A program made the position numbers and the translations under genes. From an uncultured Sphingomonas sp. (GTDB lineage: Bacteria; Pseudomonadota; Alphaproteobacteria; Sphingomonadales; Sphingomonadaceae), in the NCBI GenBank assembly GCA_913776045.1, contig CAJYOI010000041.1, positions 124,001 through 188,000 on the forward strand: a DNA stretch of 64,000 bases. The letters run 5' to 3'. Below are positions 3,086-51,726 of this stretch, one piece after another. The number at the start of each line of letters is the position of its first letter. The stretch's first letter is position 1. Under the pieces are notes generated by a model, which saw nothing but the letters and a program-made list of their open reading frames with translations, did no database searches and had not been told where the DNA came from.

Positions 3086-3162
3086 GCGCCCGTAGCTCAG
3101 CTGGATAGAGCAAGGAGCTTCTACCTCCTCGGTCGGGGGTTCGAATCCCTCCGGGCGCGCCA
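3086..3162 (+). tRNA. tRNA-Arg (anticodon UCU)
   Basis: A complete cloverleaf can be folded by eye: acceptor arms GCGCCCG / CGGGCGC, D-arm GCTC...GAGC, anticodon stem AGGAG / CTCCT with loop CTTCTAC giving anticodon TCT, and T-arm GGGGG-TTCGAAT-CCCTC (one G-U pair), with the 3' CCA encoded. Accessory genes begin directly after it. tRNA 3' ends are common attachment sites for integrative elements, so this may be the left boundary of an island. Confidence 0.96.
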
Positions 3163-8383: not shown

Positions 8384-9037
8384 TCAGACATTGGCCTGAC
8401 GGTTCCACGGCCGCGCCCACGGCAGCCGCCATTCCAGCGGCGCGGCCGCGAACGCGAGCACCGTCCTCCCGCGCGTCGCGTCCACGGTCGCCGACCGCAC
8501 GACATATTCGCCCCGCACCGTCGCCAGATGCTCGAACACCCGGTCGAGCGGGCCGCCCACCATCATCTCCCGCTCGTCCTCGGGAAGCAGCCAGGGAAGC
8601 GAGAGCATGCCGCCGTCGTCCGTGGTGGCGAGAGAGGCGTCGCCGACGCGCAGGATCATGTGGGCCGCCCGGTCCGAGAGGCAGAGGCAGAGCATGTCGG
8701 ATACGATGGGCCCCTTCCCATCCGGCCCCGCCACCGCGACCCTGACCGGACTGAACGCCGATCCGCGCATCGACCGGCCACGCACCATAGTCCGCAGGGT
8801 CGGACGCTCCGGCCAGTGCCGGGTGGGATGGATGAGCCACGCGGCCGCGTCGAGTTCGCCGGGCCGGCAGGCGTCGACGAGCAATGGCGACGCGAGGCAC
8901 ACGTTCCGACCGGCGTGCATCCGGAAGATGTTCTGGCGCATGCGCGCGGCCTCGCGGTCGACGCGCGCGAGCTTCGACGCCAACTCGGGATCCCTGACGG
9001 GCCGATGCGGCGGTCCAGGCAGCGAACCGGCGGTCAT
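8384..9037 (-). CDS. Unknown protein, last gene of the ubiquitin-like operon
   Basis: A 217-residue product. Its ATG (9037) overlaps the stop of the E1-like gene (ATGA at 9034-9037), so it is almost certainly made with it. No JAB deubiquitinase motif (HxH...D) and no RING-type cysteine pattern are visible; a lone CLC in SDMLCLCLSD is the only cysteine-rich spot after the N-terminal half. In related bacterial operons an E2-like or protease-like partner often accompanies the multiubiquitin and E1 genes; whether this protein is a divergent E2 cannot be decided from sequence alone. Confidence 0.65.
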   Translation of the reverse strand: MTAGSLPGPPHRPVRDPELASKLARVDREAARMRQNIFRMHAGRNVCLASPLLVDACRPGELDAAAWLIHPTRHWPERPTLRTMVRGRSMRGSAFSPVRVAVAGPDGKGPIVSDMLCLCLSDRAAHMILRVGDASLATTDDGGMLSLPWLLPEDEREMMVGGPLDRVFEHLATVRGEYVVRSATVDATRGRTVLAFAAAPLEWRLPWARPWNRQANV

Positions 9038-10230: not shown

Positions 10231-10876
10231 TGATCACCGTCCCCCTCGTCGCATGGAGCCTCTGGGTGGGCACCAGACTGCCCTCGGGGCGATCAGCCGG
10301 GCCGTCGCGGTAGGTCACCGTGAACATGCGGTTCGCCAGATCCCGGCGATCCGGGAAGGCCCGACCGACCAGATCCTCGTAGGTGACGTCCTCGGCCACC
10401 AGCTCGCGGCTGCGTCCGTTGACGACCACCGGCACCGTCGCGCGCTCGGTTGCCACCTGCCGCGTGACGACATGCGGCACCCAGTCCGCCGTCAGGTCGA
10501 CCATAGACCCGCGCCGCAACGGCTCGCCGCCGCTGTTGGCGAGGAACAGCCCCACATCATCCGCCACGTCCGCGATCTCGCGGATGTCGCTCTCCTGGAT
10601 GCCGGCCGCACCCCATTCCCACAGGCGTCCGTCCACCTTGAGGTGGCGAAGGCCGCCGTTGCGGTGGACGCGGAACGTCGCGACCGTGTCCTCGTCCGCC
10701 TCGACGGGATCGGTCGGCGCCACCAGCCGCGCCGCGCCGCCGTCGTCGCGGATCAGGACGTCGCGCCGCTCGGGATCTCCACCCGCCGCCATGAGAACGT
10801 CGCGACCCGTCAGGGCGCCACGAGGGAGGACATGCTCCTTGCCGTCGACGACCACCGTGATGCTTTCGCTGGACAT
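10205..10876 (-). CDS. Multiubiquitin (three beta-grasp lobes)
   Basis: A 223-residue product composed of ubiquitin-like repeats. Lobe 1 is residues ~4-80 (SITVVVDGKEHVL...), lobe 2 ~80-147 (LKVDGRLWEWGAAGIQESDIRE...), and lobe 3 ~150-223 (VPVVVNGRSREL...EDLVGRAFPDRR...VTYRDG), ending NVTATDKS. These patterns match the bacterial multiubiquitin family, whose members are substrates of a linked E1. The ATG at 10876 has a strong GAGGAG site. A 26-base overlap with the E1-like gene supports co-translation. Confidence 0.88.
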   Translation of the reverse strand: MSSESITVVVDGKEHVLPRGALTGRDVLMAAGGDPERRDVLIRDDGGAARLVAPTDPVEADEDTVATFRVHRNGGLRHLKVDGRLWEWGAAGIQESDIREIADVADDVGLFLANSGGEPLRRGSMVDLTADWVPHVVTRQVATERATVPVVVNGRSRELVAEDVTYEDLVGRAFPDRRDLANRMFTVTYRDGPADRPEGSLVPTQRLHATRGTVINVTATDKS

Positions 10877-11057
10877 GCTTCTTCTCCTCTTCGCTGTTGA
10901 ACCTGTCGTTTGGGCGGGGCGTCGCGGGCGCACCGCGCGGAAGCGCGGGCACAATCGAGCCAGGTGCGCGCGATCGCGGCGCACCACTCCCGTCTGTGGA
11001 TGAAGATCTTGCCGATCCAACCGACCGAGGTCGGCGAGCTGCCGGCGGACCTGCCGG

Positions 11058-12002
11058 TCAGCCGCTCAGCTGGCGGGCGATCTCGTCGTAGAGGCTGGCC
11101 GTCGTGACGGTCCGCCGGTAGCCGCCGCGTCGGACCACGCTGCCGTGCACGATCGCGCGGATCGTCTCGGCGTCGGGTTCGTCGAGGCCGTGATCGGCGA
11201 TGACCTCGGCGATCAGGTCGATCACCAGAAAGGTCGCGTCCATGTCCTCCGGCTCCTCCAGCCGGACTTCGAGCAGCACGTCGCGCAGGCGGTCGCGCAG
11301 GGCGTCCGGCGCGCTCGACTGGACCAGCCACGTCACCTGGCTGAGGTCGAGCGTCGCCCCGAGCCCCGGCTCCACGATCCGGCCGTTATGCCGCACGTCG
11401 AGAAGCCGGGCGACGTGCGCCAGCGCCTCCCTGTCCGCATCGTCGACGTTGATCACGGTCACCACCGGGTTCGCGCAGCGCGTCAGCGCCATCCCGATCA
11501 CCGGCGTGATCGGCATCGGCACGTCGGGCGCGTGGCGCCGATGGGCTGCATCGTGGTCGCGCACGTCCATCACCAGATGCGGCACCCCGGCGGCGTCCGA
11601 GATGCGTCGGGCGATGTGCGTCCGCCCCACACCCGCCGGTCCGGAGAGCAGCGTCGGCGGCATCGTGAACCAGGGGCGGCCGCGCACGCGCTGGTCGTCG
11701 CAGGCCGCCTCCACCAGCCGCATTAGCGCCGGGTGCCAGTCCATCGCCAGATCGCAGGCGATGCCGTTCGGGCCCAGGCGGTCACCGCCCCGCAGCTCGA
11801 ACGCGCCGTCGAGGCCGAGCGGCACCGCGCGCGTGGAGAAGCCGGAGGCGATCTCCATCATGGGGACACTGGGCCGGGGCGGCTTCGACGGCCGCGAAGG
11901 CATGGCGTGCGGCCCGTCATGCAGGACGATCGGCAGTTCGACGGCCGGCAGGATCGCGCCGTCGCGATCACCGGCGCCGTTGGGTTCGTCACGGTCGCTC
12001 AT
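11058..12002 (-). CDS. AAA-type ATPase with altered Walker motifs
   Basis: A 314-residue product resembling Lon/MoxR-type AAA proteins. The P-loop is GPAGVGRTH (121-129), where the invariant lysine is arginine, and the Walker B strand reads VVTVINVDDAD (180-190) with Asp in place of the catalytic Glu. Binding without normal hydrolysis, or a purely structural role, is therefore possible. Its start overlaps the stop of the gene upstream (ATGA at 11999-12002). The 181 bases downstream (10877-11057) show no convincing gene, then multiubiquitin follows on the same strand. Confidence 0.75.
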   Translation of the reverse strand: MSDRDEPNGAGDRDGAILPAVELPIVLHDGPHAMPSRPSKPPRPSVPMMEIASGFSTRAVPLGLDGAFELRGGDRLGPNGIACDLAMDWHPALMRLVEAACDDQRVRGRPWFTMPPTLLSGPAGVGRTHIARRISDAAGVPHLVMDVRDHDAAHRRHAPDVPMPITPVIGMALTRCANPVVTVINVDDADREALAHVARLLDVRHNGRIVEPGLGATLDLSQVTWLVQSSAPDALRDRLRDVLLEVRLEEPEDMDATFLVIDLIAEVIADHGLDEPDAETIRAIVHGSVVRRGGYRRTVTTASLYDEIARQLSG

Positions 12003-12658
12003 GCCTCGCCCCTCCAGAACCTGAGGGGACGGCGGCCGGAGCTGGTGATGCCCTTCGCCTTCGCGGCGCGCTCGGCGTCGCGCATCCCGGCGAGGACCAG
12101 CCGCTCCAGCTCGAGCGAGCCGTGCTCGCCGAGGAACTCCTCGAATTCGGTGAAGCGCGGCTGCTGCCAGCGGAGCCAGTCTACGACGCGGTCGCGCTCC
12201 CACTTCTCGGTGAAGGTCATCCGCCAGAACGCCTTGTCCTCGCTGCCGCGCTGCAGGCCGAGCGACGGCCGCTTGTGCTTTGGATCGTAGAGATAGAGCG
12301 TGATCTCGCGCGACAGGCGCTCCTGCTCGCGGGCCTCCTTGCGCAGCTCGCGCTCCCGCTCCGCCTCCTCGGCCGCGTGCTCGCGGGCGCGGTCGATGAT
12401 CATCGGGCCGAGCGTGGCGGACCCGATGCGGAGCGCCACCCTCCCCCACAGCGACCATTCCCCCGGCATCGACCACATCCAGCCGCACAGCGACTTCGCC
12501 TCCTTCGGCGAGCATTCGTGCGTCCAGACCGGAACGTGCGTGCCGTCCGGCAGGCGCCGCAGCAGCGAGACCGCCGAGCTACGGCCCTCGCCCTTGGCGA
12601 CGTGCGGGATGAAGGGGGCCGTGCCGACGTCCACGGGCCCGCGATCGGTGTTCGGCAT
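11999..12658 (-). CDS. Hypothetical protein, first gene of the ubiquitin-like operon
   Basis: A 219-residue product with a strongly charged, probably coiled-coil segment in its middle (AEEAERERELRKEAREQE). The ATG at 12658 has a GGAGG site 8 bases upstream; a TTG at 12707-12709 in the same frame is less likely because it falls inside an operator palindrome. The family is not recognised. It leads an operon with the AAA protein and probably the multiubiquitin genes, and its promoter region carries two GTTCAA-N6-TTGAAC sites. Confidence 0.65.
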   Translation of the reverse strand: MPNTDRGPVDVGTAPFIPHVAKGEGRSSAVSLLRRLPDGTHVPVWTHECSPKEAKSLCGWMWSMPGEWSLWGRVALRIGSATLGPMIIDRAREHAAEEAERERELRKEAREQERLSREITLYLYDPKHKRPSLGLQRGSEDKAFWRMTFTEKWERDRVVDWLRWQQPRFTEFEEFLGEHGSLELERLVLAGMRDAERAAKAKGITSSGRRPLRFWRGEA

Positions 12659-12703: not shown

Positions 12704-12721
12704 GTTCAAAGATAGTTGAAC
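12704..12721 (+). promoter_or_regulatory. 18-bp palindromic operator 1
   Basis: GTTCAAAGATAGTTGAAC: perfect 6-bp arms around a 6-base centre. It lies about 46 bases upstream of the ubiquitin-like operon start and is paired with a second copy at 12731-12748. The same form recurs at 19736 and 24373. Confidence 0.75.
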
Positions 12722-12730
12722 GGTTTAATC

Positions 12731-12748
12731 GTTCAATGGGTATTGAAC
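12731..12748 (+). promoter_or_regulatory. 18-bp palindromic operator 2
   Basis: GTTCAATGGGTATTGAAC: perfect 7-bp arms with a 4-base centre. Its centre is 27 bases from that of operator 1. It lies between the divergent ubiquitin-like operon and the sce7726 gene, so it could control both. Confidence 0.78.
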
Positions 12749-12840
12749 TATTTTTTTACCGGCCTCATTTCGGTCCGCAAATCGGTCAGCCCAACAATTG
12801 CGCGTTGCGCTCCGAGGACGGTCGAGGCTACCCAACTGGG

Positions 12841-13437
12841 ATGCGGGGACAGCGACTTCGAGATGGCGACGTGCGCCAGGCGGCTTACGGCCGTCTGCTG
12901 TCCCATGCACGCGCCTGCCCCGACACGCTGGTGATAGACGAGCTCGGTCTGGATCACGGCGCAAGCAGGATCGACATCGCGGTGATCAACGGCCACATCC
13001 GTGGCCTCGAGATCAAGGCTGAGGCGGACACCCTCGAGCGGCTCCCTCGCCAGGTAGCCGCCTATAGCGAGGTCGTAGATAAGGCTTCGCTCATCGTCGC
13101 GCCGAGACACCTCGACGGCGCGATGGCCATCATCCCCGATTGGTGGGGAATCATCGTCGCAGATCGGGGAACGCGTCAGGGCGTCATCTTCAACCGCGTC
13201 CGACCGGAACGGGCCAACCGGGCCGTCAACCCGCTTGTCCTTGCCCGCCTGCTTTGGCGGCCGGAGGTCCAACGGATCCTGGAGGGCATCGGCGTGCCCA
13301 AGCGCGACCTCAGGGCCCCGCGCGAGGATCTCTACCAGCGGCTGGTTACCGAGCTTCCCGCCAGACAGCTCGCCTACGAGGTCCGGACCGCCCTCAAGAC
13401 GCGCTCAATCTGGCGAGGTCCTCCACCACCTTTGTGA
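12841..13437 (+). CDS. sce7726 family protein (nuclease-like)
   Basis: A 198-residue product with the family core VIDELGLDHGASRIDIAVING ... GLEIKAEADTLERLP ... AAYSEVVDKASLIVAPRH. The D...(E)xK pattern (RIDIAV; LEIKAE) resembles a PD-(D/E)XK nuclease fold. The start at 12841 gives the usual family N-terminus; an ATG at 12736 in the same frame sits inside an operator and would add a non-family leader. It converges on the beta-protein gene with a 44-base overlap. Such proteins are often found beside beta-family and ImmA genes. Function is not established. Confidence 0.75.
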   Translation: MRGQRLRDGDVRQAAYGRLLSHARACPDTLVIDELGLDHGASRIDIAVINGHIRGLEIKAEADTLERLPRQVAAYSEVVDKASLIVAPRHLDGAMAIIPDWWGIIVADRGTRQGVIFNRVRPERANRAVNPLVLARLLWRPEVQRILEGIGVPKRDLRAPREDLYQRLVTELPARQLAYEVRTALKTRSIWRGPPPPL

Positions 13438-14476
13438 TGTGGTGGTTGGTCGCCACCCACTTCCATGTGGTGGGGTTGCCCTTCTTCTCGATGCCGAGGC
13501 GACAGCCGTCGATGTATCTCGACCCCTCGGAGAAAGCAGCACCGGCGAAGCGACCGGAGTTGACGATGCTGCCGCACAGCCCCGGATACGCCGCGTTGTT
13601 CTGCGACTTCTGCCGCTTGGCCTTTGCAACGAGCCACGCGTCGTCGATAGCATACCGGACGTTGGGCGAGCCCCGCATGTAGCGCATGTCACCCTGCGGG
13701 AAACTCACCGCAGCGATGGTGTAGTCGCCGAAGCCGGGCCGCCGGACATGCGCAGGCAGTGCTGCGACTAGTGCCTTGTAGAGCAGCCACTCGCGCCGCG
13801 GCAGCATGGTGGCGCCGTAATCGAGAGCGCTGAGGCTGTCCGGAAACGACGTCGCCAGCATTGTGACGGAATGGGCCTTGGCGATCACCTCGCTCTGCGC
13901 GAGTGCTGCCGAAATAATCCCGATCAACCCATCCTGCGGGTCGAATTGCGGGCAACGCAGATCGAGCAGGATATCGATGCGTTCGATGGGCACGCCGAGA
14001 GACTGGAAGAGCGACTTCGCATCCCTGTCGAAATCCGGATCGACCGTGTCCTCCAGACTGCATCGAAGCACCACGCCCTTGTTGTCGGTCGCGACGATCC
14101 CGCGAACCGCCTGCTGATAGTCTCCATCTCGATCGAGCGCGGTCACTGGAGACAGCGTGACGCCCTGCAGACGGGCGTCGTCGAATATGAAAGTGAGCGG
14201 ATGGCGACCATCCGACATCCGCGTCGGTGCCGGTATCTGGACGGTGTCGATCATGGCCGGCCGGCCCGGCCAGTTCTTCGCGACCTGCTTCACGAAGGGC
14301 TCGAGTTGCTCGTTGATGTGCTTCTTCGGCTTGTGCAGCTCAAAGTCGTAGTCCGGCGGCAGGACCTCGACGAGCGGCACTGTCCTGGCTCGAACACCAT
14401 CGTTCAGCCTGCGAAGTGCTTGGTATTCACCCATTCGCCACCGGAGAAGCGGGACGTAATAGTTCGGAACCACCAT
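13394..14476 (-). CDS. Beta family protein (phage T4 beta-like)
   Basis: A 360-residue product. It starts NYYVPLLRWRMGEYQAL, the typical beginning of the beta-protein family, with the later DGYTIA-like and RYMRG motifs also recognisable. The molecular role of the family is unknown; members recur in bacterial accessory regions next to XRE-ImmA/IrrE proteins, as here. Its start lies 11 bases after the ImmA-type gene stop, so the two form one transcript. The 3' end overlaps sce7726 tail to tail. Confidence 0.75.
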   Translation of the reverse strand: MVVPNYYVPLLRWRMGEYQALRRLNDGVRARTVPLVEVLPPDYDFELHKPKKHINEQLEPFVKQVAKNWPGRPAMIDTVQIPAPTRMSDGRHPLTFIFDDARLQGVTLSPVTALDRDGDYQQAVRGIVATDNKGVVLRCSLEDTVDPDFDRDAKSLFQSLGVPIERIDILLDLRCPQFDPQDGLIGIISAALAQSEVIAKAHSVTMLATSFPDSLSALDYGATMLPRREWLLYKALVAALPAHVRRPGFGDYTIAAVSFPQGDMRYMRGSPNVRYAIDDAWLVAKAKRQKSQNNAAYPGLCGSIVNSGRFAGAAFSEGSRYIDGCRLGIEKKGNPTTWKWVATNHHITKVVEDLARLSAS

Positions 14477-14487
14477 CCATCCTTCCT

Positions 14488-15753
14488 TCAGAACTCGAAT
14501 TGACGCCTCACTTCGCCCTGGCCGACCATAGACTTGAGCAACGTATAGTCACCGGCCTCACGACGCACACGTCCGGCAATAATCGCGGACGATACTCCAA
14601 ACCTCTTCGCGTCCGTCATCACGGACTTCTCCGTCCGCGAGAAGCGCGACACGGCAAGCTGCCAGTCGGCTGACGAGATCAGAGCCTCCTGCGCGAAATA
14701 GTCCGCCTCTACCTCCTTCTCGTCGGCCGCCGGCGAATCGGTGTCGTCGAATATGGCCGAATACTCACCGTCGCCGATGTGCAACTTCAGATGCGCGATC
14801 TCGTGCAGCAGCGTGAACCAGAAGTTGTCGAGCCGATCGTAACGCAGCGTCATTGCGACAATCGCATGATCGCCGGAAGACGCCAGGGCCGCCCCGTCCA
14901 GCAACGTGCCCGGCAGGTGGCGCTCGATGACGAGCGAGATGCCCATGTCGCGAAGATACCCCACGGCCGACTGCGGCCCATCCTCGGTGGTGCTGAGCGA
15001 CACTAGGCCACGCACCCAATCGTCGGTGATCGCGTCGCGGTCGAACCGGTGCGGTGGCGGCAAACGATCCGCGACGCGCCGGACACGCGCCTCCCAAGCG
15101 GCGATCGCCGCCTCGTGCACCTGCCCGCTGGACCGCACCGACTTCTTGTGGAGCGCAGCCATAGCGGGATGAGAATGACTGCCGTGCAGGAACATGGGCA
15201 TCAGTTCGCCCAGTGACTTCTTCGCCTGCGCAAGCGTGCCCGAAAAATCCTCGAACCATCCACGCTTGAACATCTCTGCGACTGGAAACGCCTGCCACGC
15301 ATCCGTCGGCAACGCCTGCAACGCCGAGTTGCCCACCAACTGCCCCTGCTCCGAAATCCTAACGCTGAGGGCATCGGCGATCTCGATCAGCCGATCGAGG
15401 CTTGCGGCGCGATAGCGCTCGGCCTCATAACGCTGAACCTGCTGCTCCTTCAGGCCCAGGAAATCGGCCAGATCCCTCTGACTCATGCCACGCGCGATGC
15501 GTGCCTGGATGAGGATGTCCGGGAGGTCATGCAGGCTCTCCGCTGCGAAGGTTGAAACCTTCCCAGCGCGCAGATCCTCGTAGAACCGGACGTCCTCCTC
15601 CAATTCGACGATCTGGTTACTGATCGCGGACACCTGGGCACGGATCAGTTCCGGCGGCAGACCAGCATCCGACGCACCAATCGCATCCAGCGACGACTTG
15701 AACTTGTCTATAGAGGCCCTGCTTGCCCGATACTGCTTCTCATTGGTGATCAT
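14488..15753 (-). CDS. XRE-type regulator fused to ImmA/IrrE metallopeptidase
   Basis: A 421-residue product. After a coiled N-terminus (~1-65) comes an XRE helix-turn-helix (about 78-132: QARIARGMSQRDLADFLGLKEQQVQRYE). The C-terminal ImmA/IrrE zinc-protease domain has HEIAH at 317-321 and downstream acidic ligands (DEKEVEADYFAQEAL). Such proteins cleave or sequester phage or toxin-operon repressors. The start overlaps the DUF6932 gene stop (ATGA at 15750-15753). With the gene upstream and the beta gene downstream it makes a three-gene operon. Confidence 0.85.
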   Translation of the reverse strand: MITNEKQYRASRASIDKFKSSLDAIGASDAGLPPELIRAQVSAISNQIVELEEDVRFYEDLRAGKVSTFAAESLHDLPDILIQARIARGMSQRDLADFLGLKEQQVQRYEAERYRAASLDRLIEIADALSVRISEQGQLVGNSALQALPTDAWQAFPVAEMFKRGWFEDFSGTLAQAKKSLGELMPMFLHGSHSHPAMAALHKKSVRSSGQVHEAAIAAWEARVRRVADRLPPPHRFDRDAITDDWVRGLVSLSTTEDGPQSAVGYLRDMGISLVIERHLPGTLLDGAALASSGDHAIVAMTLRYDRLDNFWFTLLHEIAHLKLHIGDGEYSAIFDDTDSPAADEKEVEADYFAQEALISSADWQLAVSRFSRTEKSVMTDAKRFGVSSAIIAGRVRREAGDYTLLKSMVGQGEVRRQFEF

Positions 15754-16211
15754 GGCGTCGCTCCTTTCGGCGGCGCGAGCGAGATGCGGAGTATGCCCTT
15801 GGCGGCTCCGCTGAACTTCTCGACTTGGAAGAAATCAAGGAATGGGGCGACGCCACTCGACAGTGCGGCGATGAACATCTCGCCGAGATACTTCGCCTTC
15901 TGTGCGGCACGCTTGTTGTCGAAATCGAGCAGCACGGGATCGAGCCTGCTGAAGTCGACGCCGACATGATCCCAGCAACCATCGTAGTCGCCCGGGTGAG
16001 GCTTCGCCGTGACGAAGCTGCCGTCCAGATAGACCGTGCGGCATCCCACGTGCCGCAAAGCGTCGGTCACTCGGATGAACCCCTCGAACAGCCACCGGCG
16101 ATGCGGTGTCGTCGCAAACCGGACCTCGACCTCTGCGAGCGTGGCGTCGTGAATCCCCGGCGGAAGCACCGCCCATGGGCACGAGGGGAGATCGACCAGA
16201 TCCGGTATCAT
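15750..16211 (-). CDS. DUF6932-like, nucleotidyltransferase-type protein
   Basis: A 153-residue product. YLDGSFVTAKPHPGDYDGCWD resembles the GS...DxD core of minimal nucleotidyltransferases and DUF6932 proteins, which are often toxin-antitoxin or regulatory partners. No clear ribosome site precedes the ATG at 16211; a palindrome lies immediately upstream, so this may be a leaderless or tightly regulated start. An alternative TTG at 16238 would include that palindrome. It is the first gene of the DUF6932 / XRE-ImmA / beta operon. Confidence 0.68.
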   Translation of the reverse strand: MIPDLVDLPSCPWAVLPPGIHDATLAEVEVRFATTPHRRWLFEGFIRVTDALRHVGCRTVYLDGSFVTAKPHPGDYDGCWDHVGVDFSRLDPVLLDFDNKRAAQKAKYLGEMFIAALSSGVAPFLDFFQVEKFSGAAKGILRISLAPPKGATP

Positions 16212-16213
16212 GA

Positions 16214-16233
16214 ACACAACAATATCGTTGTGT
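16214..16233 (-). promoter_or_regulatory. Inverted repeat at the DUF6932 operon start
   Basis: ACACAAC-aatatc-GTTGTGT: 7-bp perfect arms with a 6-base spacer, starting 3 bases from the ATG. It is a plausible operator for the XRE domain of the same operon (autoregulation), by inference. Confidence 0.5.
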
Positions 16234-16330
16234 CGCAAAATTGTCTAGCCCCCGCTTTGGAAGATGCGGACGCCACCGGACAAGGGTGTCCAGCCTTCAA
16301 CGGCGGGGCCAGCTCGACTATGATTGAACT

Positions 16331-17026
16331 ATGGAAAACGACGCCATCCTGAGACGCTACACGAACCTCCCGGTTCTCATCGACATGCTGGTCCGGGAAC
16401 AGATCACGATCCTTGGCTACAACCATTGGGTCGACGCAAATGACCGGCGTGGCCTAGAACTGTATCAGGACAAGCTGAGGTTCGGTTTCGTCGGAGCCAT
16501 GTGTCTCACGATGGCTTCCGAGACATTCCACCACTGGCAGATTTTCGCTCAGGGAGAATCAGGCGTCTGCATAGTGTTCGACCGCGGACGGCTCGAGGCC
16601 GCGCTTCGCGACCGCGAGCATTTCATCGCCAAGCCGGTTGACTATGTGCAGCTCAATGCGATCGGCGACATCGATCCCACCGACATCCATCGCCTTCCAT
16701 TTCTGAAACGCTACGGTTTCAGGGATGAGCGAGAGTATCGCCTGCTGGCGTTCGCAGCCGAGCAACATTCCTCCATGGCGGTCCGATTAACACCTGACCT
16801 GATCCAGCGCGTGGTGTTCAGCCCCTTCACCCACCCGAATATCGTCGCCAGCCTCAAGATCGCGCTGCGGTCGCTGCCAGTATGGCGCGGATTGAGCGTG
16901 GGACGTTCGCATCTCACCGCGAACGAAACTTGGCAGGGCGCCCTTCAGGACATGGTGGTCAGGCACGGCATCGAATACGGCGATTGGGAACCGATCGACC
17001 CGAGAGCCTTGCTCGGGCCCGCATAG
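16331..17026 (+). CDS. DUF2971-like protein
   Basis: A 231-residue product: RRYTNLPVLIDMLVREQIT ... HHWQIFAQGESGVCIVFDR ... ERVEYRL-type segment (FRDEREYRLLAF). This arrangement resembles DUF2971 proteins, which are widespread in accessory DNA near phage-defence genes, with unknown activity. It is divergent from the DUF6932 operon with 119 bases between. Confidence 0.62.
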   Translation: MENDAILRRYTNLPVLIDMLVREQITILGYNHWVDANDRRGLELYQDKLRFGFVGAMCLTMASETFHHWQIFAQGESGVCIVFDRGRLEAALRDREHFIAKPVDYVQLNAIGDIDPTDIHRLPFLKRYGFRDEREYRLLAFAAEQHSSMAVRLTPDLIQRVVFSPFTHPNIVASLKIALRSLPVWRGLSVGRSHLTANETWQGALQDMVVRHGIEYGDWEPIDPRALLGPA

Positions 17027-17070
17027 CAACACCGACCTTGGCCGATTCCTCCAGCGGGACTTGAGATATC

Positions 17071-17964
17071 TTGGATCCACCCTTTAGTTTGGTGGCATCA
17101 ACAATCCGGCGCCTTCCCTTGACCAAGCAGACCTACGAACAGCCCCGCCCCACCCTTCCCGCTGACATTCGCCGGTCTATCCTGGTGGAGGCCGGACATG
17201 CGTGCGCGGTGAAGAACTGCAATGAACACACCTACCTCGACATTCATCACATCGATCATAACCGCGAGAACAACAGCCTCGACAATCTCATCCTCCTCTG
17301 CCGCAAACATCATGGAATGGCGCATGATGAGGTCATCGATCGCAAATCGCTGCGAGCCTATAAGGAGCTGCTGAAGGGCGCAGAGCTATCACAAATTCAG
17401 GCTCGTCTGAGCGATCTCGAGACCGCACTGAACGTCGAGAAGCAGAATGTGCCCGAACAGACAGTCAGTGACGACCAACCGGCCAGCGGCCTCGCGGAGA
17501 AGTCAACTGCCGGCCGTAACGCCGTGTTGCACTTCGCGCTCTACCATGTAGCGATTTCGAGGTATGAGGCCGACTGCAGACTATACTTTGAACGGAACGT
17601 CGAGTTCCGCTCAGGTGAGCAGACGCTGACGGTGGACGGCCTACACGTCGGTGCAAACGGGGAACACGATACGATCGTCGAGGTATTCTACATCCGGAAA
17701 CCTTATCTCGATTCACCGGCCTATGCATCGTTCGTTCACCAGAAGGCAGTTCTCTACGAACTCCTGACCGGACGGGTGGCAAAGGGCGTTCTACTTGCCG
17801 TAGTTGGACGCGAGAGGATGCTCGGAGACGGCTACCTGTCGGCGACGGCTGAGGGTGTGGCCAATTTCGACGACGTCTCGTTGCAGGTCTATTCCTGCGA
17901 ACAAGTCGGTTTCCATCCCGGACCAATCAGCGCTGCCGTGATCGGACGGAACAGCGCGGTTTAG
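17071..17964 (+). CDS. HNH endonuclease with C-terminal unknown domain
   Basis: Up to 297 residues. The N-terminal treble-clef HNH is clear: CAVKNC ... YLDIHHIDHNRENNSLDNLILLCRKHH. The C-terminal half (from about 150) is a separate mixed alpha/beta domain with no known family, possibly restriction-nuclease-like. The start is uncertain: TTG at 17071 is the longest reading, while GTG at 17092 and TTG at 17119 are alternatives, and none has a strong ribosome site. It ends in a convergent terminator shared with the exonuclease gene. Confidence 0.7.
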   Translation: MDPPFSLVASTIRRLPLTKQTYEQPRPTLPADIRRSILVEAGHACAVKNCNEHTYLDIHHIDHNRENNSLDNLILLCRKHHGMAHDEVIDRKSLRAYKELLKGAELSQIQARLSDLETALNVEKQNVPEQTVSDDQPASGLAEKSTAGRNAVLHFALYHVAISRYEADCRLYFERNVEFRSGEQTLTVDGLHVGANGEHDTIVEVFYIRKPYLDSPAYASFVHQKAVLYELLTGRVAKGVLLAVVGRERMLGDGYLSATAEGVANFDDVSLQVYSCEQVGFHPGPISAAVIGRNSAV

Positions 17965-17979
17965 ATCGCTGCCGTTCCC

Positions 17980-18011
17980 GCCTGATCGCGCGGTTCGCTC
18001 CGCGATCAGGC
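17980..18011 (+). terminator. Bidirectional terminator hairpin
   Basis: Perfect 11-bp inverted repeat (GCCTGATCGCG / CGCGATCAGGC) with a 10-base loop, lying between two convergent genes and overlapping the stop codon of the exonuclease gene. Convergent placement supports a terminator role in both directions. Confidence 0.65.
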
Positions 18012-18890
18012 CCACCGCTCCCGGTTCGTGATCTGCACCCACTCCGGCCCCATCGACTTCGGGTTGGCCGAGGCGGCATAGACGTTTGCCGCCAGCCACC
18101 ACTCCTCCTCGCTGCGGTCGGACACCTCCATCCACCACAATTTGCGGTCGGCGTCCCACCTGTATCCCCTCGCCTTCAGCGTGTCCTTCAGCTCGAACGC
18201 CGCGCCGTTCGCGCGCACGATCCAGGTCTCCCGAAACGAACGGTCCACGAGTTCCGCCAGCGCCGTGCGCCCCGGTCTAACCTCGTGCGCCAGCAGCGCG
18301 ATGGTGCTGTCGACGTCGTCCGACGCCCTGTGCGCCCCGTTGTAGAAGCCGATCTGCGATAGCAGATATCCCAAGCTGCGGCCGTCGAACCCGGCCTCGG
18401 CCCAGTCGATCTCCATGCAACTGCACGCCCAGGGTCCGCCCTTGATGTCGAGCCGGGATTCAACCCGGGGCCGGTCGAACGATGCGTTATGGGCGATGGT
18501 GACGGTGGCGCTGGCCAGTATCGACTTCGCCGCATGCTCGTCGATCGCCTGCCCCGCCAGCATGCCGTCGTCCAATCCGGTGAGACGAACGATCTTCGGA
18601 TCGAGCGCGCGGCAAGGATCCTCCAGCCAGCTGTAGCGCTGGCCGACCTCGGTGATCCGGCCGGCACCGTCCCATCGGAACCTACGCATCGCGAGCTCGA
18701 TGATCACGTCGTCGGTCGCCGAGAGGCCGGTGGTCTCGACGTCGACCACGACGCCGACGTTCCAGCCCCCCGGCTCACCGACGCCGGTATAGCCCTCCGG
18801 GATGCGCAGCCGGTGCAGGATGCGGGTCTCCGCCTCCGGCATGCGCATCCATTCAAGTCCGGCCGTGCGGACGGCCGGGGCCTCGCTCAC
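18006..18890 (-). CDS. DEDDh 3'-5' exonuclease
   Basis: A 294-residue product with the DnaQ-type motifs VVDVETTGL (Exo I), HNASFDRP (Exo II) and HRASDDVDST (Exo III, DEDDh). A C-terminal extension of about 70 residues follows, including a Trp-rich WWMEVSDRSEEEWWLAA stretch. Proofreading-type exonucleases of this kind act on single-stranded DNA or RNA ends. The GTG start at 18890 overlaps the stop of the upstream gene (GTGA at 18887-18890). Confidence 0.82.
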   Translation of the reverse strand: MSEAPAVRTAGLEWMRMPEAETRILHRLRIPEGYTGVGEPGGWNVGVVVDVETTGLSATDDVIIELAMRRFRWDGAGRITEVGQRYSWLEDPCRALDPKIVRLTGLDDGMLAGQAIDEHAAKSILASATVTIAHNASFDRPRVESRLDIKGGPWACSCMEIDWAEAGFDGRSLGYLLSQIGFYNGAHRASDDVDSTIALLAHEVRPGRTALAELVDRSFRETWIVRANGAAFELKDTLKARGYRWDADRKLWWMEVSDRSEEEWWLAANVYAASANPKSMGPEWVQITNRERWA

Positions 18891-19633
18891 GCATCTAGCT
18901 CCACGACGCGCTCGGCGGTGACCGCCACGCCACGTCCGACGCGGCCGAGCTCCGCCGCCACGAGCGTCTCGATCAGGTCTGGCGCGACCAGCCCCTCGAC
19001 CATGCGGACGCTGGGATTGATGCCCTCGCTGCACACGGCGTCCTGGAGGGCCTCGTATCCGAAGATCGAGGCGACACGGCCACGGAACTCGCCGATCGAC
19101 CGCGCCATCGAGGCGTGGAAGCCATGCCGGATGCTGCCACCACGGTCGACATCGACGGTGGCCGAAAACAGGCGCGGCTCGTGGCGGTGCAGAGCAGAGA
19201 ACGCCGGCGCATCGGCATAGCCGCCGCCGACCAGGAAGTCGTCGTCATCGGCGCCTTCCAGATCGGAATCGGCTTCCGCATCGAAATCATCATCGTCCTC
19301 CCCGCCGAGAGCGTCGATCGCGTCGGGAGACGCGTCCAGGCCCAAGGACAGGCCGTGAAGGAGGATCGCGCGGGCGAAGTCGGTGCGGGCGACGCAGGCG
19401 TCGAGCGCGCTCGCGCCATCGAACAGCTCGCGCGGCGTGAGCATCCACGCCATGGGGTCGACCTCGATCCCCTCGCGCTCGAAGCGCGAGGCGGTCTCGG
19501 CGGCGACATAGGCGACGCGGCAGAGCGCGCGGCGCGAGATCATGAGGACGCTGTCCTCGGGGCGGTCGTATTCGAGGGGGTCCTCAACGGTAACGTTGGG
19601 ATTGGTCTTCCTCAGGTCGGCGGTCATGAGCAT
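18887..19633 (-). CDS. Hypothetical protein, DUF2384-like segment
   Basis: A 248-residue product. The stretch WMLTPRELFDGASALDACV followed by ARAILLHGLSLG recalls the toxin-binding Xre/MbcA (DUF2384) fold, but the match is weak. An acidic tract (GEDDDDFDAEADSDLEGADDDD) interrupts the middle. The ATG at 19633 has GGAG 6 bases upstream. It forms an operon with the exonuclease. Its promoter region holds the palindrome at 19736, shared with the divergent ArsR gene. Confidence 0.6.
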   Translation of the reverse strand: MLMTADLRKTNPNVTVEDPLEYDRPEDSVLMISRRALCRVAYVAAETASRFEREGIEVDPMAWMLTPRELFDGASALDACVARTDFARAILLHGLSLGLDASPDAIDALGGEDDDDFDAEADSDLEGADDDDFLVGGGYADAPAFSALHRHEPRLFSATVDVDRGGSIRHGFHASMARSIGEFRGRVASIFGYEALQDAVCSEGINPSVRMVEGLVAPDLIETLVAAELGRVGRGVAVTAERVVELDA

Positions 19634-19735
19634 GAACGTCTCCAGTTCCGGCGGGTGATTGGTCCTCTCCTGCACTCCGCGGCCCCGTCGGTTCTGCCGC
19701 GCCATTCCGGACCATATAGTCCAGAATGGTTCAAT

Positions 19736-19753
19736 GTTCAACGACCGTTGAAT
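19736..19753 (+). promoter_or_regulatory. 18-bp palindromic operator 3
   Basis: GTTCAACGACCGTTGAAT: inner 6-bp arms TTCAAC/GTTGAA are perfect, with one outer mismatch. An adjacent half-site GTTCAAT starts at 19729. It lies between the 18887-19633 operon and arsR-like gene. Confidence 0.72.
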
Positions 19754-19797
19754 AATTGATTTTAGTCCCGCGCTGGGACTTTTCATGCTGGCAATCC

Positions 19798-19811
19798 GTT
19801 CAATGTTCAAT
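19798..19811 (+). promoter_or_regulatory. Tandem operator half-sites before arsR-like gene
   Basis: GTTCAAT repeated directly twice (19798-19804 and 19805-19811), 12 bases before the ArsR-type start codon. The same GTTCAATGTTCAA string occurs at 19729-19741. The position fits autorepression by the gene product. Confidence 0.5.
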
Positions 19812-19823
19812 TATATGTGACTG

Positions 19824-20114
19824 ATGTCTCAACCAAACCTCCCGATCTTCACCGCACTCGGCCAGCAGACCCGCTGGAGGGCCTTCGAGGTCCTTCTCGA
19901 ACACGGTGACAAGGGACTGCTCCAACGCGAGATAGCGGCGGCGCTCGGCATCGAGAAGAACCTGATGTCGGTGCACCTGCGGATCCTGAAGGAGGCGGAC
20001 CTCGTCTCCGCGGAGAAGAACGGCCGCGAAGTCACCTATCGGGTCACACCCGCCGCCGCGCGCGAGGCAGCCGAGATCCTGCTGCGGACCATCGAGGGCG
20101 GCAAGTCCGCCTGA
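19824..20114 (+). CDS. ArsR-family transcriptional regulator
   Basis: A 96-residue winged-helix protein: PIFTALGQQTRWRAFEVLLEHGDKG, then recognition region LQREIAAALGIEKNLMSVHLRILKEADLV and wing SAEKNGREVTYRVTP. It has no cysteines, so it lacks the ELCVC-type metal site of arsenic/cadmium sensors and is unlikely to sense metals that way. Operator half-sites lie just before it, and it is the only stand-alone small DNA-binding regulator near the three GTTCAA-N6-TTGAAC loci, making it the prime candidate for their control. Confidence 0.88.
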   Translation: MSQPNLPIFTALGQQTRWRAFEVLLEHGDKGLLQREIAAALGIEKNLMSVHLRILKEADLVSAEKNGREVTYRVTPAAAREAAEILLRTIEGGKSA

Positions 20115-20473
20115 TAGGTCGCGCATGGCGACCCGCCGTAAACAGACGCCGCGTTCGCGCGCCTGCGACCGGTGCGCCATCACCCGACCATCGGCCAGGC
20201 GGCACGAAGTCACTCCCTGACGGGGCCCGGGAAAGGCTGATCCCGCCCGTATCCGCACGGGTTTTGGTATAGCGAGTTCGCTGGCTCTCGCATCTACCTG
20301 CGCCAGCATCCCCCATGTCACACATAATGGGCCGGACCGATGCAGACCCCCGGAGAGGCCCGCGACCTCTTCCTGCCCGGATGGCATCCGCGACGGAGTT
20401 GCGCGGGCGCATCACTTCGATGGCGTCAGCCCTCCTCCGTCGACCGACCCGATCTCTGACAGGAGGATACAAC
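20115..20473. other. Gene-poor stretch between arsR-like and MBL genes
   Basis: 359 bases with no credible ORF. It holds a terminator-like hairpin at 20246-20265 and the ribosome site AGGAGG (20461-20466) for the MBL gene. Nothing else was recognised. Confidence 0.6.
20246..20265 (+). terminator. Possible intrinsic terminator after arsR-like gene
   Basis: CCCGT / ACGGG stem with a 6-base loop followed by TTTT. The stem is short, so strength is doubtful. Confidence 0.4.
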
Positions 20474-21211
20474 ATGAAGCCCGAGAAGTTCGCACGCCAC
20501 GCCGATCCCGCCACCGAGGAGATGGTCTCGTCGCGCTACGCGCTGAAGTTCGGCGACAAGGAGGTCCTGATCGTCAGCGACGGCGTGCTGCCGCTGCCGA
20601 CGACCACGCTGGCACACAACGCCGATCCGACCAGCCGCGCCGGTTGGTTCAAGGAGATGTTCCTGCCGTCCGACGCGCTCGACTGGCCGCTCAACGTCGC
20701 CGTCATCCGCACGGGCGACCAGGTGATCCTCGTCGACGCCGGTCTCGGTGGCCAATTCCCTGGCTTCCCGCGCGCTGGCCAGTTCCCGCAGCGCCTCAAG
20801 CATGCGGGCATCCCGCTCTCGTCCGTGACCGACATCGTCATCACCCACATGCACATGGACCATATCGGCGGCCTGCTCGTCGATGGCGTGAAGGAGCAGT
20901 TCCGCCCCGACGTCCGCATCCATGTCGCGGCATCCGAGGTCGAGTTCTGGAAGGCGCCCGACTTCACCCTCACCGTCATGCCCGAGGCCGTGCCGCCGGT
21001 GCTGCGTGCCACCGCCGCGAAGTTCGTCGAGGTCTATGGCAGCATGATCCGCACCTTCGACGAGGAATACGAGGTGGCGCCCGGCGTGCTCGCATGGCGG
21101 ACCGGCGGCCACACCCCCGGCCACTGCGTCGTCCGCGTCACCTCGGGCGAGGATCGGCTGACGTTCGCGGGCGACGCCATCTTCCCCGTCGGCTTCGACC
21201 AATCGGACTGA
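20474..21211 (+). pseudogene. MBL-fold hydrolase, C-terminally truncated
   Basis: A 245-residue metallo-beta-lactamase-fold protein. The zinc motif THMHMDHIGG, the HTPGH histidine and the bridging FAGDAIFP aspartate are present, but the reading frame stops 9 residues later (FPVGFDQSD). Family members continue for about 70 more residues and carry the last zinc-ligand histidine, so this copy is probably inactive. It has a strong AGGAGG ribosome site. The break lies 154 bases upstream of the SLATT/SMODS pair, suggesting loss of its 3' end during insertion of that cassette. Confidence 0.72.
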
Positions 21212-21365
21212 TCGATCTCGGTCCTGCCACCTCAAGCGCTGGTCTGCCACGATATCCACGGAAATCGTGAAATCATCCGGCCGGCAGCATGTTGGAACGC
21301 TTGATCCGTTTACGATCTGTTCTAGACTATTACCCATCCGACATGACAGGCCGGCAAGGTGGAAT

Positions 21366-21878
21366 ATGAGCGACGCCCCGAACTCGATGATCGCAATCAA
21401 GGACGAACTTGAGCGCATCGAGGAAGACTGCATCCATTCGGGCAAGGCCCAGTTCAACGCTGGCGTTCGGTGGAGCCGCTATCATCTCCTGTTGGGCGTC
21501 CCTGCCGTAATCCTCAGCGCGCTCGCCGGAACCGCGTTCTTCAAGGATCAGCCTGAGATCGCGGGTGTCATGTCGACGATCGTCGCCATCCTGACCGCCC
21601 TGTCCACCTTCCTGAAGCCGTCGGAGCGCGCCTCGTCGCACAAGGGCAGCGGGGACCAGTATCTCACCCTTCGGAACGACGCCCGCGTCCTGCGCACCAT
21701 CAAGCTGGATTCCGCCTGCGACGAAGCGGCCGCCATCGCGAACCTCGATGAGATCACCAAGCGCCGGAACGAGCTGAACCAGGCGAGCGCGCAGGCTTCG
21801 CGTTCCGATTTCGAGAAGGCCCGCAAGGGCATCGACGAGGGTGAGGCCGCTCACCGCGTCGACCGCAAGGAGTCCTAA
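21366..21878 (+). CDS. SLATT-domain membrane protein (CBASS-like effector)
   Basis: A 170-residue product with two adjacent membrane helices (about 41-58 and 66-83) flanked by charged cytoplasmic helices, the SLATT architecture. SLATT proteins are predicted pore-forming effectors paired with nucleotide-signal synthases. The ATG at 21366 follows AGGTGGA. The stop (TAA) overlaps the start of the SMODS gene by one base, so the pair is coupled. Function inferred from context and architecture. Confidence 0.82.
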   Translation: MSDAPNSMIAIKDELERIEEDCIHSGKAQFNAGVRWSRYHLLLGVPAVILSALAGTAFFKDQPEIAGVMSTIVAILTALSTFLKPSERASSHKGSGDQYLTLRNDARVLRTIKLDSACDEAAAIANLDEITKRRNELNQASAQASRSDFEKARKGIDEGEAAHRVDRKES

Positions 21879-22651
21879 TGTCCGTCCTCAGCTACCTGCA
21901 GACCCGTGCCAGCCAAGCCGTTCTTTCAACCACCGAAAACACTTCCATCAATACGTCCATCTCGACGCTGGCGACGCGCCTGAACTATCATTTCGGCGCC
22001 AACGTCAGCTCGCATTTCCGGTTCGGCTCATCGACGCGCGGCACGATCCTACCACGTGCGATGGATGACCATTCCGACATCGACTACATGGTTGTGTTCG
22101 CGCAGGGTGGCTATTCGCCCCAGACATACATCGACCGACTGCGGGAATTCGCCGAGACCTACTATTCCACCTCGGACATCAAGCAGTCGTCGCCGACGAT
22201 CGTGCTGCAGCTCAATCACATCAAATTCGATCTGGTGCCTGCCCTCGCCGGCTACTGGCCCGGGGTATACCAGATCCCGAACGGCCCCACCGCGTGGCGG
22301 GACACCAACCCGAACGACTTCAACGCCAAACTGACTGCCAAGAACCAGGCCGAGCTCAACCTCATCAAGCCGACCATCCGCCTGGCGAAGTTCTGGAACG
22401 CGCGGAACGGTTACGTCTACGATTCCTACGGGTTCGAAAAGTGGATCGTCGAGCAGTCCTATTATTTCGACAACAACCAAAAGGCGTATCTCTTCTCCGT
22501 TTTCGACAAGCTCGGCGCCAACGAGGCGGCCGCCTGGCGCAACGAGAAGATCAACCGTGCGAAGCAGATCATCGCCAAGGTCCGCGAATATGAAGCGGAC
22601 AACATGCCGTTCACCGCGGAGAGCGAGATCAAGAAGCTGATCCCTGAATAG
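21878..22651 (+). CDS. SMODS/CD-NTase-like nucleotidyltransferase
   Basis: A 257-residue product with the polymerase-beta core: FRFGSSTRGT (GS at 50-51), DHSDIDY (catalytic Asp67 and Asp69) and a third acidic residue in IKFDLVPA (Asp118). This matches SMODS/CD-NTase enzymes that make cyclic oligonucleotide alarm signals in CBASS. With the SLATT gene it forms a minimal two-gene module; no ubiquitin-type or HORMA accessory gene is adjacent. Confidence 0.85.
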   Translation: MSVLSYLQTRASQAVLSTTENTSINTSISTLATRLNYHFGANVSSHFRFGSSTRGTILPRAMDDHSDIDYMVVFAQGGYSPQTYIDRLREFAETYYSTSDIKQSSPTIVLQLNHIKFDLVPALAGYWPGVYQIPNGPTAWRDTNPNDFNAKLTAKNQAELNLIKPTIRLAKFWNARNGYVYDSYGFEKWIVEQSYYFDNNQKAYLFSVFDKLGANEAAAWRNEKINRAKQIIAKVREYEADNMPFTAESEIKKLIPE

Positions 22652-22768
22652 GGCATTTGAGCGCCCCGACATCGCCACCGTTTGGTCCAGCCCGATTTCC
22701 CGATCTCGGGTCTGCCCGTAGCCGCGCCGCCCTGTCAGCTTCCAGGCTGGGCAAATCGGGAAGGCAAC

Positions 22769-23699
22769 ATGACGGTAATGGACACGGTGGTGGAGGTCAG
22801 CAGGGAGAAACTGCTGCATTCGCTCTACGAAGCGGCGGAACTCGAACACAACTTGATGTGCACCTACCTCTACGCCGCCTTCAGCCTGAAGGACGGCGAC
22901 GACGACGGCGTGACCGCCGAGGAGGGCGAGGCGCTCCGTCGCTGGCGCCATGCCATCGTCGCGGTCGCCGTCGAGGAGATGGGGCACCTCACCGCCGTCT
23001 GGAACATCACCTCGTCGATCGGCGGGGCACCCCACTTCGGCCGCACGAACTTCCCGATCGAGCCGGGATTTCTTCCGGCCGGTGTCGTGGTGAAGCTGGC
23101 CCCGTTCAGCCACGCCGCTCTCCAGCACTTCGTCTATCTTGAGCGGCCCGAGGGGTCAGACTAACCCGACGGCCCCGGCTTCGAACCGGAATGCCGCTCC
23201 ATCCGGCCCCCCGCCCCTCCGCGTCTGACCCCCGCCGCATTCGACTATGCGACCGTCGGCGAGTTCTACGCCCGCATCGAGCGCGGCCTCGTCCAGCTCG
23301 TCGAACAGGTCGGCGAGGCGGCGGCGTTCTGCGGCGACCCTCGGCTCCAGCTATCCCCCGCCGAAGTCATGCTGACGGGTGCGTCAGTCGTCGACGGCCT
23401 GGCATCCGCCCGCGAGGCGCTCCGCCTGATCGTCGAGCAGGGTGAAGGCGCGCCGGTCGATTCCGAGGGCTCGCACTTCCAGAAGTTCGTGCGGATCCGA
23501 GACGAGCTGACGGCCATCGAGCGCGCCAATCCGGACTTCCGGCCTGCGCATGCGGCGGCCCACAATCCGGTCCTGCGCAAGCCACCGCGTCCCGAGGGGC
23601 GGGTCTGGATCGAGGATCCCGAAGCGATCGAGACCGTCGATCTCGCCAACGCCGTCTACTCCCTCTCCCTGCGCCTGCTCGCCGCATCCTACGCGGTGC
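22769..23699 (+). pseudogene. Ferritin-like protein, nonsense-interrupted and truncated
   Basis: The ORF begins MTVMDTVVEVSREKLLHSLYEAAELEHNLMC, the typical start of ferritin-like (VioB-type) proteins, and is stopped by an in-frame TAA at 23162-23164 after 131 codons. The same frame then continues coherently (PDGPGFEPECRS ... TPAAFDYATVGEFYARIERG ... NAVYSLSLRLLAASYAV) to about 23699, where histidine-kinase sequence in another frame takes over. So it has both a nonsense codon and a lost 3' end. The start at 22769 has GGGAAGG upstream. Confidence 0.78.
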
Positions 23700-23879
23700 A
23701 CCGGCCTCGGCCTCGCACAGATCGTCACCTTCGCCCGCAGCGTCGGTGGTGGGATCTGCGTGGATTCCGCGGTCGGGATCGGGACGACCTTCCGACTGCT
23801 CCTCCCCTGCACGGCCAAGGTGGACCGACCACTCGACGAGCTTCGCGCCGTCGATGCCGTGGCCCGGGTCGCGGCCTGA
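23700..23879 (+). pseudogene. Histidine kinase C-terminal fragment
   Basis: About 59 codons starting TGLGLAQIVTFARSVGGG and then VDSAVGIGTTFRLLLPC, the G2-box end of a sensor-kinase ATPase domain. No start or upstream kinase sequence is present; the 5' side joins directly to the ferritin-like remnant, so this is a deletion scar. Confidence 0.72.
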
Positions 23880-23905
23880 CTCCGCACCCAAGGCGCGGGG
23901 GGCGA

Positions 23906-24319
23906 TCAGCCGCCACGCCGCTCGACGATGTGGATGTCGCCCCCCGTCTCCAGCGACCGCCAGTTAGGGCAGCAGTCGCCGATCTCGGCCAGTCGGTCGC
24001 GGAGCGCCTCGGGAACGATCCTGCGGACGATCGGGTGGTCGACGTCGATGCCGTCCACGACCTCGACCAGTCCCAGATGCTTCGCGGGAATGCGCTGCGA
24101 GACACGTCCCAGAACCTCGCTGCGGCTCGTCGCGTGGCAGGCGTGGAAGATCTCGATCTCGTAATCCTCACCGTCGATGCGGCACGTGGCGGTGAAAAGA
24201 CGGGTGGGCGCCGATCGTTGAGCTGCACCGATCGGAAGCGCCCGACCCCAGTTCAGCCAGGGAAAGCACGGCGCGGCCATCGCCGGTTCACCCGTCATGG
24301 AAAGCGTCATCGCGTTCAT
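23906..24319 (-). CDS. Hypothetical protein
   Basis: A 137-residue product of unknown family. It is a compact mixed-fold protein with no membrane segment; a CRIDGEDYEIEIFHACHATSR segment is the most distinctive part. The ATG at 24319 has a GAGG site just upstream. Its promoter region (24320-24415) carries operator 4, so it probably belongs to the palindrome regulon. Confidence 0.6.
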   Translation of the reverse strand: MNAMTLSMTGEPAMAAPCFPWLNWGRALPIGAAQRSAPTRLFTATCRIDGEDYEIEIFHACHATSRSEVLGRVSQRIPAKHLGLVEVVDGIDVDHPIVRRIVPEALRDRLAEIGDCCPNWRSLETGGDIHIVERRGG

Positions 24320-24372
24320 CCTCGCCTCCAGGTCAGTCAATGAGGGCGCGGATGTGGGTTGTGAAATCAATT

Positions 24373-24390
24373 GTTCAATGGTTGTTGAAC
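24373..24390 (-). promoter_or_regulatory. 18-bp palindromic operator 4
   Basis: GTTCAATGGTTGTTGAAC: perfect 6-bp arms, the same form as at 12704, 12731 and 19736. A further half-site GTTGAAT is at 24400-24406. It lies 54 bases before the 23906-24319 gene. Confidence 0.75.
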
Positions 24391-24415
24391 ATTCCAGCGG
24401 TTGAATGCGCGACAT

Positions 24416-49363: not shown

Positions 49364-49391
49364 GCACGCTCTCCGAACATGGAGAATACGC

Positions 49392-51719: not shown

Positions 51720-51726
51720 CCACCCG

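Follow-up and report, generated by a model that had tools for sequence, protein, structure and literature searches.

A 64,000-nucleotide stretch of DNA from an uncultured Sphingomonas sp. (contig CAJYOI010000041.1, positions 124,001 to 188,000; hereafter the window) carries genes for a ubiquitin-like system together with a gene, arsR, for a small ArsR-type protein. Inside 11.7 kb of it lie four sites of the form GTTCAA-N6-TTGAAC, three exact and one near-exact. Judging from the position and conservation of the sites, the cysteine-free ArsR-type protein probably uses this palindrome as its operator and would act at several separate promoters. We consider it likely, from gene order and homology, that the protein represses an operon that has been split, and that the distal half has operators of its own. 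A role in defence is plausible for the system from the neighbouring genes.

The palindrome and the ArsR-type protein

Two exact copies, referred to as operators 1a (12704..12721) and 1b (12731..12748), are 27 bp apart from centre to centre. The third, operator 3 (24373..24390), stands 54 bp before the start of the gene at 23906..24319 (minus strand; the 23906 gene), and is found in the same place at the related loci L053, L054 and L055. Operator 2 (19736..19753), inside the divergent spacer between arsR and the gene at 18887..19636 (minus strand; the 18887 gene), was counted as a full copy in a preliminary description of this DNA, and in fact has one mismatch (final base T). The additional half-sites reported there are present: GTTCAATGTTCAA occurs at ~19729 and is repeated at ~19799, just before the arsR start, where the tandem half-sites (19799..19812) occupy the -10/start region of arsR and look similar by eye in L054 and L055.

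At up to two mismatches the window holds five matches, compared to 0.68 expected and a maximum of 3 in 100 shuffles. The fifth, at 16312-16329, has two mismatches, lies immediately before the start of a DUF2971 gene and is likely due to chance; the preliminary description found no palindrome elsewhere in the window, which holds for exact and one-mismatch forms but not for this copy. Across the whole genome (3,150,225 bases in 68 contigs) the exact palindrome occurs three times, at 12704, 12731 and 24373. Allowing one mismatch gives six places, four of them here (reversed-pattern control, 0); the other two look like background, C9:3853 being part of a long coding frame and C20:86312 lying where no gene is convincing. 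The core TTCAA-N6-TTGAA is found exactly at five places in the genome, four being these sites and the fifth, C3:58524, being inside a long coding frame. In 29 genomes (~98.7 Mb as the sum of listed sizes) there are seven exact copies, five at loci belonging to this arsR clade and two elsewhere, with one for the reversed control. Because of these counts in the window, the genome and the relatives, with their reversed controls, a chance cluster is ruled out, and random genome positions show no similar density.

The arsR gene (19824..20114, plus strand) encodes 96 amino acids which, as first described, include no cysteine. The product scores above the curated cut-offs of the ArsR-family winged helix-turn-helix (HTH) profile NF033788 (59.2 bits, cut-off 55) and of PF01022 (23.3, cut-off 22), its best Pfam match being MarR_2 (29.7, cut-off 27), and the profile of its family matches 19 distinct solved sequences in the PDB at E 1e-10 or better, which are ArsR-type regulators by name. 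The residues of a cysteine-type metal or thiol sensor are missing, so release from DNA would not occur via cysteine metal or sulfide sites. The genome encodes no second ArsR protein of this kind; the next-best matches have E 0.058 or worse. Close orthologues (62-64% identical) are encoded at L053 in Novosphingobium rosa, L054 in Sphingobium vermicomposti and L055 in S. quisquiliarum, and the remaining 68 of 71 ArsR loci in the genome contig collection are more distant (at most 48% identity in the best segment). In all three the palindrome lies ~770-800 bp downstream of the arsR start, before a homologue of the 23906 gene; it is exact in L054 and L055 and has one mismatch in L053. Plasmid records gave seven ArsR matches, all under 60% identity, and viral contigs gave none that was confirmed. 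The short form TTCAA-N6-TTGAA also occurs in 11 loci other than the sites of this clade, most of them on contigs with distant ArsR relatives, and at L043 it lies ~20 bp before a distant arsR match.

To compare arsR-18887 spacers, 34 loci with an 18887 gene were collected: 32 from 28 of 396 Sphingomonadales genomes, including the window, L053 and L055, together with L054 and the plasmid locus L213. In a second, overlapping draw by profile search, 26 of 376 genomes had the gene. A divergent arsR was recognised by a short peptide motif at 30 of the 34 loci (this motif replaced a narrower one that gave 22 of 33), and removal of the near-copies L191, L193, L195 and L196 left 26 non-redundant spacers, the window's included. 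TTCAA-N6-TTGAA, with up to two mismatches, is present in 21 of these 26 (shuffles: mean 2.34, maximum 6, n = 200), and a putative operator is thus conserved beside the promoter of arsR itself. Other gaps from 0 to 21 score 0 to 7, except gaps 3, 14 and 19 (13, 17 and 11 spacers, respectively), which are read as tandem half-sites; gap 18, with 7, is also above all shuffles. ArsR is the sole regulator-type protein recognised as common to the compared loci, of which not every gene was scanned.

Two observations concern the surroundings of these loci. Genes resembling heavy-metal efflux components by sequence appearance (CDF, RND, membrane-fusion and outer-membrane) lie near the arsR-18887 loci L190, L192, L195 and L199. 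Downstream of the pair at L213, on a Sphingomonas parapaucimobilis plasmid, caspase-family, S8 peptidase and TIR-domain genes are annotated.

Gene order and the inserted blocks

At L055, nine genes of the window are adjacent, in the order and on the strands that they have in the window when its inserts are left out: the 23906 gene (52% identity), arsR (64%), the 18887 gene (65%, N-terminal part), a DEDDh exonuclease gene (60%), op1 (54%), and genes for an AAA protein (39%), a multiubiquitin protein (58%), an E1-like protein (63%) and the protein of the 8384 gene (43%). N. rosa has another locus, L180, with contiguous 18887, exonuclease, op1, AAA, multiubiquitin, E1 and 8384 genes; no 23906 homologue was found there. 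The exonuclease and op1 genes are 66-177 bp apart in L055 and L180, and no palindrome was seen in this gap at either locus. The arsR and 23906 genes are convergent neighbours in L053, L054 and L055. The likely controlled units, namely the 23906 gene, the 18887-exonuclease pair and the op1-to-8384 genes, are parts of one system, which is contiguous in L055 and, for the 18887-to-8384 stretch, also in L180. The preliminary description had the ArsR protein repress different accessory operons, taken as unrelated defence modules, in trans; the synteny of L055 rejects the unrelated modules, the units being pieces of one system, but the conservation of the putative operator beside arsR orthologues is consistent with action in trans.

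In the window the distal half runs on the minus strand from op1 (11999..12655), for which no Pfam, NCBIfam or PHROG match was found. It is followed by an AAA-type ATPase-like gene (11058..12002; weak Pfam AAA_16/AAA matches below cut-off; homologues at L055, L180, L214 and L215), a multiubiquitin gene with three Multi_ubiq stretches (10205..10885; PF14452, E 1.6e-19) and an E1-like gene with DUF6791 and ThiF domains (9034..10230; PF20590, E 2.9e-46; PF00899, E 3.2e-13). The last gene, 8384..9031, has no Pfam match and occurs in both variants of the system (family c7); its family alignment has no cysteine conserved throughout, and nothing supports the E2-like identity that served as a working label. 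The exonuclease, also on the minus strand (18006..18893), is a 3'-5' enzyme of the PRK09182 type (PF00929; NF006615, 259 bits, cut-off 207), and is encoded nearby at 28 of the 34 loci. The 18887 gene, which served as the query for finding the system elsewhere, matched nothing in Pfam, PADLOC, NCBIfam or PHROGs. The 23906 gene is a paralogue of its C-terminal domain and encodes a stand-alone copy of it; at L189 the two halves are separate and neighbouring. An earlier open reading frame of the 23906 gene (to 24415) crosses the palindrome, and the likely start is the ATG at 24319 behind GGAGGCGAGG; like this one, the probable starts of op1 (12655) and of the sce7726-family gene (12841) are corrections made by eye.

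At other loci the exonuclease gene is followed by genes of families c3 and c4, and c7 comes next in several. Family c3 was found in 13 of 33 loci and c4 in 12 of 33, counts based on an ad hoc rule of G+C by codon position that misses genes; the c3 copy of L053 matches phrog_2164. The op1 product matches c4 of L179 (30% identity, E 4.5e-4) and has a C-terminal pattern in common with it by eye, and op1 is probably related to c4 of the other variant. By homology and gene order, this is one sphingomonad system with at least two variants. Searches against PDB profiles gave two weak matches to ribosomal protein S4 for the 18887 family (E 0.038 and 0.95) and none for c4. Among plasmids, the 18887 protein was found in one record and op1 in none; relatives of E1 occur in 93 plasmid records.

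Two blocks with approximate limits separate these genes in the window. Block 1 (12756..18005, ~5.3 kb), between the exonuclease gene and op1, holds sce7726, Beta_protein, HTH-M78, DUF6932, DUF2971 and HNH genes; block 2 (20115..23905, 3.8 kb), which separates arsR from the 23906 gene, holds MBL, SLATT_4, SMODS CD-NTase and ferritin-like genes. The double palindrome is located where the distal half is severed from its upstream genes. Operator 1b with its A-rich flank matches the 23906 promoter of L053 at 24 of 28 bases, compared to 19-21 of 28 for five other stretches (with no shuffle control), which suggests that a 23906-type promoter was copied to the front of op1. A split is favoured over a joining because of the terminal 8384 gene and the closer relationship to L055 and L180 than to the solo op1-E1 loci L214 and L215: the 8384 gene closes the distal half in the window, L055 and L180 and matches nothing in L214 or L215 (at E 0.01), and the window E1 is 63% identical to that of L055 and 40-49% to those of L214 and L215.

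The DUF2971 gene of block 1 (16331-17026) has a 58% identical relative at L176:11247-11903, near another arsR-18887 locus, hinting that such loci are repeated insertion places. In block 2, a SLATT_4 protein is followed by a SMODS-domain nucleotidyltransferase (21267-22651), a CBASS-like pair of which each member exceeds its Pfam cut-off. A tRNA-Arg gene (TCT anticodon, 3086-3162) to the left of the accessory region is a possible integration site. Three consecutive genes at 49356-54902 match rve (below cut-off), TniB (above) and TniQ (below), presumably a Tn7/Tn5053-like transposition set.

Proposed mechanism and alternative explanations

We infer binding and repression by ArsR, and the copying of its operator, from the sites, their conservation, the gene order and homology. 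The ancestral locus would have resembled L055: the 23906 gene, a convergent arsR, a divergent spacer with operator half-sites, and then the 18887-to-8384 genes in one direction. Two cassette insertions would have broken it apart, and the distal half would now begin at its own promoter with two operators that may stem from the copying of a 23906-type promoter. One ArsR repressor, a dimer by family, would keep all parts off in trans across ~12 kb, with arsR itself under control from the spacer that it has in common with the 18887 gene. Blocking of RNA polymerase is the likely mode, since the palindrome arms supply TTGAAC, a fair -35 element. By eye, the candidate op1 promoter reads TTGAAC-16-TATCTT, with its -35 element given by operator 1b and its -10 element overlapped by operator 1a, and that of the 18887 gene reads TTGAAC-17-TATATG. 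A consensus scan reported neither of these; it lists ATGAAA-16-TAAAAT (19786 to 19759) towards the 18887 gene, from which the start would fall inside operator 2, and the scans neither support nor refute the proposal. The output would be a ubiquitin-like response (E1 and poly-ubiquitin-like protein) plus an exonuclease, perhaps against mobile DNA.

Several observations weigh against repression of a split operon by ArsR. The op1-AAA-multiubiquitin-E1 set also exists without the other genes of the system (L214 and L215; 4 of 397 genomes gave an op1 match), and at six DUF6791 loci of other families multiubiquitin and E1 are present while nothing matches op1, the 18887 gene or arsR; because such loci exist, the distal half could have arrived by joining instead of being split off. 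Four of the 34 loci (L179, L185, L188 and L190) have no arsR by the motif, and five of the 26 spacers have no site (L180, L186, L198, L199 and L213). L180, one of the two contiguous homologues, is thus among those that fail the operator test, and its arsR is only 37% identical; the spacer of the other, L055, has only a two-mismatch N6 match. The arsR-proximal palindrome beats shuffles in L053, but not in the window, L054 or L055. One-mismatch palindromes number 4, 2 and 4 in the genomes of L053, L054 and L055 compared to 4, 2 and 3 for the reversed control; these counts give no hint of a wider regulon, and since the palindromes are no commoner than the control, only the position beside arsR marks the site in these genomes. 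No promoter was reported by the consensus scan at operator 1 or operator 3.

An island-level regulator might instead have recruited unrelated defence modules via operators placed before them, which we regard as unlikely. The operators do stand at three separate promoters, solo op1-E1 modules exist, and the 12704/12731 pair lies between op1 and the first inserted cassette, the sce7726-family gene (12841..13437, plus strand; NF033832, 145 bits, cut-off 70), which may therefore be a recruited cassette. The start of sce7726 is ~90 bp from operator 1b and no good rightward promoter fits operators 1a and 1b by eye; that it is their target is possible but unproven. However, every clear target belongs to one system that is contiguous in L055. 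The window scan found no exact or one-mismatch palindrome before other island cassettes (Beta_protein/HTH-M78/DUF6932, HNH, MBL and CD-NTase), sce7726 excepted through the intergenic region that it has in common with op1, and DUF2971 has only the two-mismatch site at 16312. More speculatively, and with low confidence, we suggest that the operators are portable modules: after the insertions, copies of the ArsR operator-promoter would have been placed before stranded genes and incoming cassettes, sce7726 first, and the cysteine-free ArsR would be the common switch of a growing island, sensing the entry of phage or mobile elements, a signal that no ArsR protein is known to sense.

It is rather improbable that another regulator binds the palindromes, be it an SOS repressor, the HTH-M78 protein (14488-15753) or the 18887 protein itself. 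HTH-M78 is a nearby HTH protein, but among the loci of the compared relatives it has a tblastn match only at L180 and, at E 0.006, at L202. The 18887 protein, with no assigned fold, is present at every compared locus as it was the search query. The alphaproteobacterial LexA site has the form GTTC-N7-GTTC, and its three matches in the window (1.72 expected) include none at the palindromic promoters, so LexA-type sites were rejected. The placement of a palindrome within the arsR spacer favours ArsR, although the 18887 protein may be the one that binds. That the palindromes represent conserved parts of promoters, or RNA hairpins, rather than operators, as TTGAAC arms able to act as -35 elements (by eye) and the one terminator-like hairpin scored (12736-12716) might suggest, is highly improbable given the specificity of the N6 spacing (21 of 26 loci, compared to 0 to 7 at most other gaps) and the near absence of the exact 18-bp form elsewhere in the 29 genomes.

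Relation to known systems

Like the ArsR/SmtB proteins of solved structure (HlyU, YgaV, BigR, NolR and SmtB), the window protein scores above the cut-off of the family model and has an inverted repeat in its own divergent spacer; it differs in its lack of cysteine, in the GTTCAA-N6-TTGAAC operator and in its link to a ubiquitin-like/exonuclease system. Among the listings searched in the open-licence literature, none described an ArsR protein as a regulator of antiphage systems or defence islands.

Small repressors with repeated operators that control defence islands or operons are described in work on BrxR, CapS and RptR (PMC9122601, PMC13373217, PMC12255303). BrxR/CapW repressors of defence islands bind inverted repeats, at two sites, R-BOX1 and R-BOX2, in the case of BrxR (PMC9122601, PMC9122588). 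They have a WYL domain, whereas the ArsR protein of the window has no WYL match (Pfam scan, E 0.1) and its sites stand at three transcription units. CapS is a winged-HTH repressor that binds palindromes of two spacings, with a winged HTH resembling those of ArsR and MarR; the CapK/CapS genes precede Bub (bacterial ubiquitination-like), CBASS and Bil operons, a Bub-operon reporter demonstrated the control, and Bub operons are described in the same work as not shown to protect against phage (PMC13373217). In contrast to the 96-residue ArsR protein, which has no STAS match, CapS has a STAS domain and an HTH-STAS-GHKL kinase as partner; no such kinase was found by Pfam among 20 window proteins scanned. 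RptR, another small repressor, controls a defence island that has one system nested inside another, and acts on the island promoter via three direct repeats with a TAGCTA core, unlike the palindromes of the window (PMC12255303).

The ubiquitin-like genes resemble the polyUbl operons in row 6e of Iyer et al. 2006: these encode tandem Ub-like domains and an E1-like protein, with JAB or a different domain replacing it, and their clusters are described as mobile (PMC1779556). Two of three tested features fit the window, the tandem Ub-like domains (three Multi_ubiq) and the E1-like protein (DUF6791-ThiF); the inactive E2/RWD-like protein and the metal-binding protein of row 6e have no counterpart recognised by Pfam in the window. 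Compared to row 6e, the window adds arsR, the 18887 gene, the DEDDh exonuclease, op1 and AAA, and no JAB or E2/RWD domain was recognised. DUF6791 was not found in the open-licence literature searched.

These results assign a probable regulator and a probable operator to a sphingomonad ubiquitin-like/exonuclease system that we did not find in print. They also offer a case from nature in which a broken operon seems to have retained its co-regulation via further operators. The operator would provide a handle for finding the inducer, and hence the trigger, of the system.

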